Under the pieces are notes generated by a model. The model did not search any database and was not told the origin of the DNA. It was given only the letters and a program-made list of their open reading frames with translations. Below, piece by piece: positions 37,295 through 40,350 of a DNA stretch of 64,000 nt; position 1 is the first letter of the stretch; the number at the start of each line of letters is the position of its first letter. Source of the stretch: Fimbriimonadaceae bacterium (GTDB lineage Bacteria; Armatimonadota; Fimbriimonadia; Fimbriimonadales; Fimbriimonadaceae). Position numbers and translations under genes: made by a program. Where the stretch lies: NCBI GenBank assembly GCA_026129685.1, contig JAHCHO010000005.1, positions 62,001 to 126,000 on the forward strand, written 5' to 3'.

Positions 37295-37370
37295 GCCCCC
37301 GTAGCTCAGCGGATAGAGCAACCGCCTTCTAAGCGGTTGGTCGTGGGTTCGATTCCCGCCGGGGGCGCCA
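37295..37370 (+). tRNA. tRNA-Arg (anticodon UCU)
   Basis: 76 nt folding into a full cloverleaf: acceptor stem GCCCCCG/CGGGGGC, D arm GCTC...GAGC, anticodon arm ACCGC-CTTCTAA-GCGGT with anticodon TCT at 37328-37330, variable loop, T arm GTGGG-TTCGATT-CCCGC, discriminator G and an encoded CCA (37368-37370). It reads AGA codons. A TACAAT hexamer at 37278-37283 is a plausible -10. The 16-bp repeat linked to the segment downstream begins within the terminal CCA. Confidence 0.97.
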
Positions 37371-37384
37371 CCCCTTTTCTGCAA
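37369..37384 (+). repeat. left copy of a 16-bp direct repeat at the tRNA-Arg 3' end (att-like)
   Basis: CACCCCTTTTCTGCAA, identical to 38364-38379. The first two bases are the CA of the tRNA's encoded CCA, a position where many site-specific integrases recombine. Confidence 0.75.
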
Positions 37385-37626
37385 GGAGACCAGCCCTTTG
37401 AACCATGGACACCAAATCGAATCAGGCATCCACGCTCTGCGAGACTCTGCTGTGGTAACCGCGATCATGCTCGTTGAGCTGATGATGATAGGCCGCCGCC
37501 AGCCTACCGTATACGTTGCCGCGGCTCTGGACGACCTTTGAGGACTGGATCTAGGAGTTTCGAGGGGTCGCCAGCCTCATCGAGTCGTGCTTCGGGTTCT
37601 TCGTCGAACTGGACGAAGCTGTTGGT

Positions 37627-37669
37627 GGAATGCTGGTTGTCTCTCTCCCTCGTTAGGCGCCAGCATTCC
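37627..37669. terminator. perfect 10-bp inverted repeat downstream of the gene at 37687-38292
   Basis: GGAATGCTGG (37627-37636) and CCAGCATTCC (37660-37669) with a 23-nt loop. It begins 18 bp past the stop of the minus-strand gene, so it may terminate that transcript, although no T-tract follows; a recombination or protein site is an alternative. Confidence 0.4.
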
Positions 37670-37686
37670 CAGCCTGTCCCACCATA

Positions 37687-38292
37687 CTATGGTGTGTCTG
37701 TCTTCTCGACCCGAACCTCCCCCCCGACAACGAGGCTCACGCCGCCTGGCGTGAGCCAGGTGGCGTCCCCATTACGGGTCCTTCTGGACGCTCCGAGCTT
37801 GGCTTCTGCATCGCGAAGTACATCGGACACGGCTTGTGGATCACGCAAGCTCAGATAAATGACCTCCACGGTTGGGGAAGAAGACGGCGACAGTGTGACC
37901 GTGACAGTCTTGAAGGGGCCGTCTGACTGATCAAACCAGACGTACTTGCCGCCCTCGGATCGGGTACCCAAGCGTAGCTTCTTGACATCATCGTAGGACA
38001 TCCCGATTCTGAGGTCACCGATGGCTCGCGGGTAGGGATCGCCGGGACGAAAAACGTCTCGATATTTGGTGGGGCCCGGAGTCCGAATCAGCGCCTCGGC
38101 TGGTGGCGGCGTTGGGCTCGCCCCCCAGGAATCGGACTGTCCTCCAGCTTCGGCCTCCGGCGTTGCTTCCCCCTTGGCACACTGGGGAGAAACGGCCGTG
38201 ATGAGGGCAGCGGCCACCACGCCGGCAGCGGTGATGAGGGCAACCAGGACCTGAGTTTGCATGCCGCCCTGCTTCTGGCCGCCTTTGCCCAT
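37687..38292 (-). CDS. membrane-anchored protein of unknown function inside the tRNA-linked segment
   Basis: 201 residues from ATG 38292. After a short Gly/Lys/Gln-rich tip there is one membrane helix (TQVLVALITAAGVVAAALIT), a Pro/Ala/Glu-rich linker, and a C-terminal domain starting IGDLRIGMSYDDVKKLRLG, a SmpA/OmlA-like opening, with YVWFDQSDGPFKTVTVTLS and a final LVVGGEVRVEK. The start is well supported: consensus TATAAT (38299-38304) lies exactly six bases upstream and TTGCCC 17 bp before that. Base composition is lower in GC than the flanks, suggesting transfer. Function unknown. Confidence 0.75.
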   Translation of the reverse strand: MGKGGQKQGGMQTQVLVALITAAGVVAAALITAVSPQCAKGEATPEAEAGGQSDSWGASPTPPPAEALIRTPGPTKYRDVFRPGDPYPRAIGDLRIGMSYDDVKKLRLGTRSEGGKYVWFDQSDGPFKTVTVTLSPSSSPTVEVIYLSLRDPQAVSDVLRDAEAKLGASRRTRNGDATWLTPGGVSLVVGGEVRVEKTDTP

Positions 38293-38298
38293 GCCAGG

Positions 38299-38327
38299 AT
38301 TATACGCCCCTCCCGCACCAAGGGCAA
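38299..38327 (-). promoter_or_regulatory. consensus promoter (TTGCCC-17-TATAAT) for a leaderless transcript
   Basis: Minus-strand -35 TTGCCC (38322-38327), 17-bp spacer, -10 TATAAT (38299-38304), then six bases to ATG 38292. Transcription should begin at or within a base or two of the start codon, with no room for a ribosome-binding site. Confidence 0.8.
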
Positions 38328-38363
38328 ACGAGCCGTTCGTGGGCGGCTGTTCCGGCTGACAGT

Positions 38364-38379
38364 CACCCCTTTTCTGCAA
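38364..38379 (+). repeat. right copy of the 16-bp direct repeat
   Basis: CACCCCTTTTCTGCAA, identical to 37369-37384, about 995 bp away. Chance occurrence at this spacing is negligible. Confidence 0.75.
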
Positions 38380-38476
38380 CAAAGTTCAACCACCGGACAG
38401 GCGAATACGTCGAATCCGTTGTATGATGGAGGGTCGAAGGCCTGTCGTCAGGCCACGTCCCTCGAGGAATCCGTAC

Positions 38477-39379
38477 ATGGGCACGCACAATCATCGAACG
38501 CGCAAAGCGTTCACCCTGATCGAACTGCTCGTCGTCATCGCGATCATCGCGATTTTGGCGGCGATTCTCTTCCCCGTCTTCGCGCAGGCCAAGCAGGCCG
38601 CGAAGAAGACCGCCGACCTTTCGAACATCAAGCAGACCATGTTGGGCGTGCTGATGTACAACAACGACTACGACGACCAGTTCGTCATGCTCCGCAACAG
38701 CGCCCCGCGTTGGGGCTGCAACGGCGCGGCGATCGTGAACTGCGAGCAGGTGAACAGCGGCCACAACATGACCGCGCCGTACATCAAGAGCCGTGACATC
38801 TGGGCTTCGCCGCAGGACGGCCTGCAGCGGAACGACTGCCCCGACGTGGGTCCGAACACTCCGGGCGGCACCGTCAGCTACGTGTACACGCGCTACCATC
38901 CGAACCACCTGACGAACGCGTCCTTCCGCGGCTCCTTCGGCGTGGCGGGTTGGGACAGCACCCCGGCGGCGGGCGGCTTCAACGCCAACTGGAACAACTC
39001 GCTGAACGGTTCCGCGCTCGGTGCGCCCGCTTCGACGATCTTCCTGCACCCGCTGTACTGCACCTGGACGTACTGGAACGGCCTGATGCAGCACCGCAAC
39101 GACACCCGCTGGGTGATCTTCAACGCGGCGCAGATGGGCACGACCCTCGCCATTAGCGAGTACCCGGTCGTGGACAGCTACGCGGGCGCGTGGTGCGGAC
39201 CGGGCGACGCGATGTCGGTCGGCGCCTACAACGGCACCGTCAACTACGGGTTCGTGGACGGTCACGCGAAGGGCATGAAGCGCGCGCAGGTCGCCGACAT
39301 CCAGTGGGCGACGGACATGGCGGGCGCGGAAGCGAACAACAAGCGCAACCTAATGCACTACGACGAGCGGTATCACTAA
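38477..39379 (+). CDS. type IV prepilin-like/pseudopilin protein with H-X9-DG-type C-terminus
   Basis: 300 residues. The class III signal is HRTRKA followed by [20 protein letters not shown] and the amphipathic [14 protein letters not shown] helix; prepilin peptidase should cut before the Phe. The residue at -1 is Ala rather than the usual Gly. The globular part has Cys residues (WGCNG, NCEQV, RNDCPD, LYCTW, AWCGP) and the ending NYGFVDGHAKGM typical of DUF1559/H-X9-DG prepilin-like proteins. GAGGA at 38463-38467 supports ATG 38477, and TATGAT at 38422-38427 is a likely -10. It is co-transcribed with the next small gene and followed by a terminator. Confidence 0.92.
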   Translation: MGTHNHRTRKAFTLIELLVVIAIIAILAAILFPVFAQAKQAAKKTADLSNIKQTMLGVLMYNNDYDDQFVMLRNSAPRWGCNGAAIVNCEQVNSGHNMTAPYIKSRDIWASPQDGLQRNDCPDVGPNTPGGTVSYVYTRYHPNHLTNASFRGSFGVAGWDSTPAAGGFNANWNNSLNGSALGAPASTIFLHPLYCTWTYWNGLMQHRNDTRWVIFNAAQMGTTLAISEYPVVDSYAGAWCGPGDAMSVGAYNGTVNYGFVDGHAKGMKRAQVADIQWATDMAGAEANNKRNLMHYDERYH

Positions 39380-39691: not shown

Positions 39692-39988
39692 TCAGTCGCC
39701 GCCCGTGAACGTCCGGACGACGAGCACGACCGCGTACACCAAGGCCGGACCCAAGATTGCGCCAAGGAAGAGAACGGCGACGAGGTTCCAGACCCGGGAG
39801 TTGACGAAGAAGCCGGTGGGGCCGAGGTAGATGGAGCCGAAGGAACCGGGAGTCTGGTGCACGTTCGACTCGAAGGGGCGGTCGCGGTAGCACTCCGGGC
39901 ACGCGTCCTGGTTCGTCACGGTGCCGCAACCGGGGCAAATCCACGGGGTACCGATGGGTTCGGGCTCGTTCTCGGGAGCGGAACTCAC
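39692..39988 (-). CDS. zinc-ribbon plus membrane helix protein, paralogue A
   Basis: 98 residues from GTG 39988 (MSSAPENEPEPIG). A zinc ribbon ICPGCGTVTNQDACPECYRD (Cx2C...Cx2C) is followed by SNVHQTPGSFGSIYLGPTGF and one long hydrophobic helix (LVAVLFLGAILGPALVYAVV) ending in a short polar tail. GTG 39988 is chosen over an in-frame TTG at 40003 because TATGAT (39995-40000, minus) lies six bases before the GTG. Homologous along its length to the tandem neighbour at 40042-40332. Function unknown; a membrane-tethered metal-binding adaptor is the structural reading. Confidence 0.75.
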   Translation of the reverse strand: MSSAPENEPEPIGTPWICPGCGTVTNQDACPECYRDRPFESNVHQTPGSFGSIYLGPTGFFVNSRVWNLVAVLFLGAILGPALVYAVVLVVRTFTGGD

Positions 39989-40006
39989 GCTTCCATCATA
40001 CAACTC
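39967..40006. repeat. 40-bp repeat, copy 1 (promoter and first codons of paralogue A)
   Basis: Forty bases identical to 40311-40350. The copy covers the -10-like TATGAT, the GTG start and the first six or so codons on the minus strand. The conservation stops abruptly inside the coding sequence. Confidence 0.9.
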
Positions 40007-40041: not shown

Positions 40042-40332
40042 CTACCGGCCGAGCAGGAACCGGACGAGAAGCACCAACCCAATAACTACGCTAGGCACGA
40101 AGACGATGCCCAGGAAGACCAGGGGATTGTACATCGGCCGCCCGCTCGCTCTCGGAACCATCGGACCGCCGACGATTCCCAGGTAGGAACCCGGGTTCTC
40201 GAACTGCCCGAAGTCGGGAGGTCGCTCCCTCAAACACTCGGTGCAGTGGGAGCGGTTCGTGGCCGTCCCGCAGTCCGGGCAAACCCAGGGCTCGCCGGTG
40301 GGCTCGGGCGCGTTCTCGGGAGCGGAACTCAC
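40042..40332 (-). CDS. zinc-ribbon plus membrane helix protein, paralogue B
   Basis: 96 residues from GTG 40332 (MSSAPENAPEPTG). The zinc ribbon is VCPDCGTATNRSHCTECLRE, followed by FENPGSYLGIVGGPM and a C-terminal helix (LVFLGIVFVPSVVIGLVLLV). TATGAT lies six bases before the GTG, identical to paralogue A. The ribbon cysteines and overall layout are kept while the linker has diverged, so the duplication is not brand new although the promoter/start block is identical. Function unknown. Confidence 0.75.
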   Translation of the reverse strand: MSSAPENAPEPTGEPWVCPDCGTATNRSHCTECLRERPPDFGQFENPGSYLGIVGGPMVPRASGRPMYNPLVFLGIVFVPSVVIGLVLLVRFLLGR

Positions 40333-40350
40333 GCTTCCATCATACAACTC
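40311..40350. repeat. 40-bp repeat, copy 2 (promoter and first codons of paralogue B)
   Basis: Identical to 39967-40006, 344 bp apart. It includes the candidate -10 TATGAT at 40339-40344 (minus strand). Confidence 0.9.

Follow-up and report, generated by a model that had tools for sequence, protein, structure and literature searches.

A one-gene, integrase-free segment between 16-bp direct repeats at the 3' end of tRNA-Arg(UCU), a candidate for insertion in trans

How did a foreign gene come to lie between two copies of a direct repeat at the 3' end of a tRNA gene with no integrase beside it? The question arises in the window, a stretch of 64,000 nucleotides from the genome of a Fimbriimonadaceae bacterium (G000), whose relevant features are collected in Table 1. 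The segment was described in an earlier note as about 1 kb long; from repeat to repeat it measures 995 bp.

Table 1. Features at the tRNA-Arg(UCU) locus of the window, followed by small units at tRNA genes of relatives
Feature	Position or size	Strand	Remarks
tRNA-Arg(UCU)	37295..37370	+	CCA encoded; presumed insertion target; ARAGORN, Rfam tRNA 71 bits
Left 16-bp repeat copy	37369..37384	+	attL-like; CA of CCA + 14 nt
Non-coding part	37385..37686	.	GC 0.576; no remnant detected of an integrase or of any other protein
TTTGAACC motif	37397..37404	+	27 nt past CCA; without the usual T[A/G] extension
Hairpin	37627..37669	.	perfect 10-bp inverted repeat (37627-37636 / 37660-37669), 3' of orphan gene; possible terminator
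Orphan gene	37687..38292	-	201 aa; by inspection, a transmembrane helix at the N terminus and a soluble domain at the C terminus
Sigma-70-like promoter	38327-38299	-	TTGCCC-17-TATAAT
Right 16-bp repeat copy	38364..38379	+	attR-like; tRNA fragment not recognisable on its left side
Flanking chromosomal gene	38423..39379	+	type IV prepilin-like N-methylation signal
L186 (G021), tRNA-Arg(UCU)	1.66 kb		37-bp att; two orphan genes; no integrase detected
L224 mini-unit	1.22 kb		no integrase detected
L231 mini-unit	1.39 kb		Fic; no integrase detected
L234 (G007 C2) mini-unit, tRNA-Arg(CCU) fragments	1.39 kb		DUF1275; no integrase detected
L239 (G078 C1) mini-unit, tRNA-Arg(CCU) fragments	0.79 kb		methyltransferase; no integrase detected
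L228 (G021 C19) mini-unit, tRNA-Arg(CCU) fragments	2.09 kb		esterase and second hydrolase-like gene; no integrase detected
L227 (G062 C2) tandem array, tRNA-Arg(CCU)	~1.36, 1.45, 3.2, 5.0 kb		PIN (~1.36 kb); small gene + PIN (1.45 kb)

The exact 16-bp direct repeat CACCCCTTTTCTGCAA that had been reported at 37369-37384 and 38364-38379 is present at both coordinates in identical copies. The tRNA gene ends in CGCCA, and the repeat starts inside the encoded CCA as claimed, covering the last two tRNA bases (CA) and 14 nt of trailer. The sequence is not a common one: in the 3.94-Mb genome, CACCCCTTTTCTGCAA has no further copy that is exact or carries a single mismatch, which removes the objection that the 16-mer might occur genome-wide. 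Two copies with two mismatches are found, and about two are estimated by chance. Both lie within 5 kb of integrases (contigs C1 and C16), and we weighed them as possible donor att sites. We rejected them: they are on the side of the tRNA away from the element, appear to be coding and match the chance expectation in number. A composition-based estimate predicts ~7e-5 repeats of at least 16 bp in the 1.5 kb below tRNA-Arg(UCU), and ~0.003 across 44 tRNAs. When the tRNA 3' ends of the genome are compared with up to 20 kb downstream, only tRNA-Arg(UCU) and tRNA-Arg(CCU) show a repeat of at least 14 bp, the latter with 46 bp. To the left of the right repeat, no significant tRNA-like sequence is detected. 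The shared TCGTGGG reaches a score matched by 35% of random stretches and was discarded as an ancestral tRNA fragment. Beyond this genome, the core has 13 viral matches in IMG/VR and 46 in GTDB, about the chance number by estimate; none is within 1.5 kb of a tRNA, and no parent element with this core is among them. A recombinase with an att site matching the 16-mer, which the earlier note had proposed to look for, was not found.

The interior has a GC content of 0.611 compared with 0.667 for the window, placing it in the lowest 1.2% of equal-sized stretches. Its single gene is indeed the membrane-anchored orphan of lower GC that had been described, with the helix assigned by inspection and no homologue found. 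In codon usage the gene scores -0.29 bits per codon, compared with +0.33 to +0.57 for nine neighbouring genes, and GC3 is 0.67 versus 0.83-0.92. Because both values differ from those of the neighbours, we consider that the gene was not shaped in this genome. Homologues of the protein number zero in 291 genomes of the phylum, in GTDB contigs and in IMG/VR viral contigs, and Pfam, NCBIfam, PHROGs, PADLOC and PDB return no match. Three weak matches in phylum genomes (E~0.002) were rejected: all three are short and interrupted by a stop, and they fall in or beside the linker. A single-sequence AlphaFold model is uninformative (mean pLDDT 37.5). The promoter deserves the description near-consensus, with 10 of 12 positions matching, and the predicted +1 falls at or beside the first ATG, so that the transcript would be leaderless or translation would start at the second ATG. 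DNA searches reveal no copy of the interior elsewhere in the genome or in 40 relatives, and no match to phage or plasmid DNA. We conclude from the low GC, the non-host codon usage and the lack of relatives of the gene in 291 phylum genomes that the interior is foreign.

The remaining gene-free ~300 bp contain the perfect 10-bp inverted repeat seen before, which folds into a hairpin directly after the orphan gene with a weak z of -1.8. One GTTRRRY-like heptamer lies beside it; its partner box was not seen in a check, made by eye only, for the paired R''/R' boxes of an attC site as found 3' of the gene in integron cassettes. No integrase remnant is detected in this part by blastx, Pfam or PHROGs. 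The segment itself holds no integrase, in agreement with the earlier note, and none is encoded within 20 kb downstream. Terminal inverted repeats are likewise lacking, the best end-to-end match being equalled by 80% of random pairs.

Relatives with both repeats and the same interior at a fixed position had been named as the observation that would speak against integration; neither repeats nor interior is kept in any relative searched. The two genomes of the same genus, G001 and G002, yield no syntenic empty site because the tRNA sits in other surroundings there, and no such site was found elsewhere. In G002, the orthologue of the flanking prepilin-like gene does not adjoin a tRNA. Further along the window, an exact 40-bp repeat at 39967-40006 and 40311-40350 spans the beginnings of two paralogues (MYDGSVSSAPEN...) and reflects a gene that was duplicated locally and recently.

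This genome actively hosts tDNA islands. It encodes 11 tyrosine recombinases, five of which adjoin tRNAs (Val, Ala and three Thr). The tRNA-Val island spans 58.7 kb with an integrase and a 46-bp att, and the tRNA-Arg(CCU) island spans 14.6 kb, also with a 46-bp att (L098:328-15007; C6:76975-91654). PF00589 finds no integrase in the latter stretch; its cargo includes an RHS-repeat protein, a glycosyltransferase/TPR protein and the end of a transposase-like gene. Both islands have the 3' half of their tRNA as core, in line with tDNA islands described in the literature (PMC4383910). Relative to the end of the CCA, the att blocks of the other islands start at -48 to -25 and end at 0 to +9. The att block of the window segment extends from -1 to +14, which places its core in the trailer.

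An integrase follows each of the three tRNA-Thr genes (C11:65780, C4:89215 and C1:496010; L064, L075 and L068). Paired TTGAAGTCATTTTGAAGTCA direct repeats lie directly after the CCA in two of these three loci and in diverged form in the third. At a distance of about 17 kb from the integrase at tRNA-Thr(CGU), a Cas1 within a 506-aa ORF (C11:47529-48341; L169, L064) sits beside a RAMP protein. Another Cas1 gene (C2:87600-88421; L168) adjoins a CRISPR array with the repeat GTTGCAACCCCCCCTCACCCCGCAAGGGGATTGAAAC.

A short motif, TTTGAACC, recurs at tRNA 3' ends. Within 60 bp of five tRNAs of the genome it occurs six times, against an expectation of 0.037: at Ala (with integrase), Val (with integrase, inverted), twice at Arg(CCU), at Asp, and at Arg(UCU) at 37397. 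We searched 113 genomes of the order for the pattern T-arm...CCA-N0-30-TTTGAACC, alongside a reversed control. About 100 sites are found in 50 of the 113 genomes, and none in the control. In 40 sampled loci (L220-L259) the motif nearly always reads TTTGAACCT[A/G], and an integrase starts less than 2 kb from the tRNA in 12 of them. It marks integrase-bearing islands and integrase-free units alike. In nine of ten single elements with both junctions known, the motif is missing from the flank past the far tRNA fragment, so it is part of the element rather than of the target. The motif is complementary to GGTTC of the tRNA T-arm and may be an integrase site. Its usual position is 2-8 nt inside the element. 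The copy in the window carries limited weight because it lies deeper, at 27 nt, and is followed by A. The estimated chance of the match is ~2e-4 for this one tRNA, while about one or two such matches are expected order-wide. The right end of the segment has no known motif. In relatives, some units, both small and large, have in common a GTAGAYTCAAnTCAGA...TTTCAACCTATTTTTCTTCA-like sequence at their right ends.

Small units without an integrase are not restricted to this genome. With a profile built from its integrases, we observe in relatives units of 0.8-3.3 kb that are bounded by tRNA fragments, lack a detectable integrase and have as cargo a single gene or a pair (Fic, PIN, methyltransferase, esterase). 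Displaced 3' fragments of tRNA-Arg(CCU), in arrays or pairs, bound units of 0.8-19 kb in L227, L228, L234, L239 and L254/L255 (G094 C1); in several of the small ones the cargo is one or two genes (PIN, DUF1275, methyltransferase, esterase) and an integrase is not detected. At another tRNA-Arg(UCU) (L178:300-1290; G037 C11), a nearly complete second copy with an altered 5' end follows 0.87 kb on, with two small ORFs between the copies. For the small units of relatives, movement in trans is a serious reading beside decay of each one, and both have to be reckoned with.

Taken together, there is good support for site-specific insertion at the tRNA 3' end with no integrase inside the segment. The unique repeat, the foreign interior, the anchoring to the tRNA and the integrase-free units of the order all speak for this part of the earlier proposal. 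The part that does not stand is the classic form, since nearly all of the repeat is outside the tRNA.

From this anatomy and its comparative context we infer the route of entry. The reading we favour, with moderate confidence and ahead of a deleted larger island, is a 995-bp circle inserted by an integrase supplied in trans. The 16-bp core in the circular form of the element would recombine with the same 16 bp at the 3' end and trailer of tRNA-Arg(UCU). Insertion would leave one copy of the core on each side and the tRNA intact, and would bring in one foreign gene with its promoter and no integrase. The agent would most likely be a tDNA-type tyrosine integrase from another island, as suggested by the end motif TTTGAACC, which the segment shares with integrase-bearing islands of the order. 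The empty site would then read ...GGGGGCGCCACCCCTTTTCTGCAACAAAGTTC..., and the circle junction ...GGCTGACAGTCACCCCTTTTCTGCAAGGAGACC... Several observations weigh against insertion in trans: an att block unlike that of the other islands, a motif that is deep and lacks T[A/G], and a right end without motif. Given the difference in att block, a different crossover position or a different enzyme would be needed. Neither an empty site nor an excised circle nor a cognate integrase was found in support.

The main rival is a CIME-like remnant, which we regard as a real possibility though a less likely one. An integrase-bearing island at tRNA-Arg(UCU) would have lost its integrase and nearly all cargo through an internal deletion, with the two att repeats, a single gene and a stub of non-coding DNA left behind. 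The empty 300 bp lie exactly where the islands of this genome have their integrase, next to the tRNA; the 14.6-kb tRNA-Arg(CCU) island is likewise without a detectable integrase, and decay of this kind is what defines CIMEs (PMC5704250). However, the non-coding part contains no remnant of an integrase or any other protein, and the orphan gene, which has a promoter of its own, is intact. Moreover, integrase-free units with intact genes recur in relatives, an outcome that decay alone would not favour. Improbable, in our view, is a chance repeat, or a fill-in duplication at a staggered break that captured foreign DNA, with the position at the tRNA a coincidence. This would agree with the single locus and the lack of an identified cognate recombinase, but it has to contend with the ~7e-5 expectation for tRNA-Arg(UCU), with the fact that no other non-island tRNA reaches 14 bp, and with the combination of exact tRNA-end position, foreign interior and motif at 37397. 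Least of all do we expect that a transposase-like integrase, for instance a casposase, duplicated its target site here: casposases can target tRNA 3' regions with TSDs of ~14-15 bp, for example at tRNA-Leu, and repeat length and position resemble such sites (PMC10359463) in a genome with four Cas1 genes, but the missing terminal inverted repeats argue strongly against it, the segment contains no Cas1, and of the two Cas1 genes examined one lies by a CRISPR array and one by a RAMP gene, the other two being near contig ends.

If small units of this kind are moved in trans, one resident integrase could feed many small accessory genes (toxins, Fic, methyltransferases, orphans) into a genome, and tRNA ends would be sites of gene capture comparable to integrons. 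We tentatively extend this, with considerable doubt, to the whole order: tRNA 3' ends may be cassette platforms at which small integrase-free units with one or two genes, tipped with TTTGAACCT[A/G] and delimited by tRNA ends (as tandem arrays in several genomes), are inserted in trans by tDNA integrases in an integron-like capture, the window unit being a variant with its core moved into the trailer. The common end motif offers a handle for searches and a testable hypothesis for the integrase binding site.

Among known systems, the segment resembles CIMEs in having att-like repeats on both sides, no genes for integration or transfer, and a small cargo (PMC5704250). Both att sites are retained, as two exact 16-bp copies that we presume to be recombinase sites. 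CIMEs, in contrast, are traced to a parent ICE or IME with the same att by gene loss, whereas this 995-bp, one-gene segment has no known parent; no remnant is detected in its non-coding part, and no parent with this core is among the IMG/VR and GTDB matches. With Islander tDNA islands (PMC4383910) it shares the insertion at a tRNA 3' end and the downstream direct repeat in the orientation of the tRNA. It departs from their definition in three respects, as the far end has no displaced 3' tDNA fragment (only 2 nt of tDNA are repeated), no integrase lies within, and it is below the 2-kb limit; the architecture is otherwise the same. Islander islands cross over in the anticodon loop, the T loop or the T/acceptor junction; the crossover of the segment would lie in the trailer. 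Since Islander drops units that lack an integrase or are shorter than 2 kb (PMC4383910), finders of this type systematically miss one-gene mini-islands at tRNAs.

Compared with the TTTGAACC elements of the order, whose att block takes in the tRNA's 3' half (from about -48/-25 to 0/+9) and whose end reads TTTGAACCT[A/G], the segment has its block at -1 to +14 and TTTGAACC at +27, then A. The casposon and mini-casposon arrangement of TIRs inside TSDs is not seen. The additive islands of Ca. Methylopumilus also vary widely in unit size and carry mostly unknown genes in association with repeated tRNA ends (330 bp-42 kb, 1-63 CDS, 20-bp tRNA-Lys ends; PMC10872708), but their repeats are true tRNA ends and that of the segment is trailer. 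In the ssrA arrays of Dehalococcoides, tandem units are bounded by 20-bp repeats of the 3' end of an RNA gene, and 16 islands carry the integration module (PMC3146451); these islands differ in being larger and in using a CcrB-like serine recombinase at tmRNA. The principle of units bounded by RNA-gene ends, some without integrase, is thus already covered by CIMEs, ssrA arrays and Methylopumilus islands. New are the one-gene scale combined with a core in the trailer, an end motif that integrase-bearing and integrase-free units share across the order, and the arrays of mini-units at tRNA-Arg(CCU).
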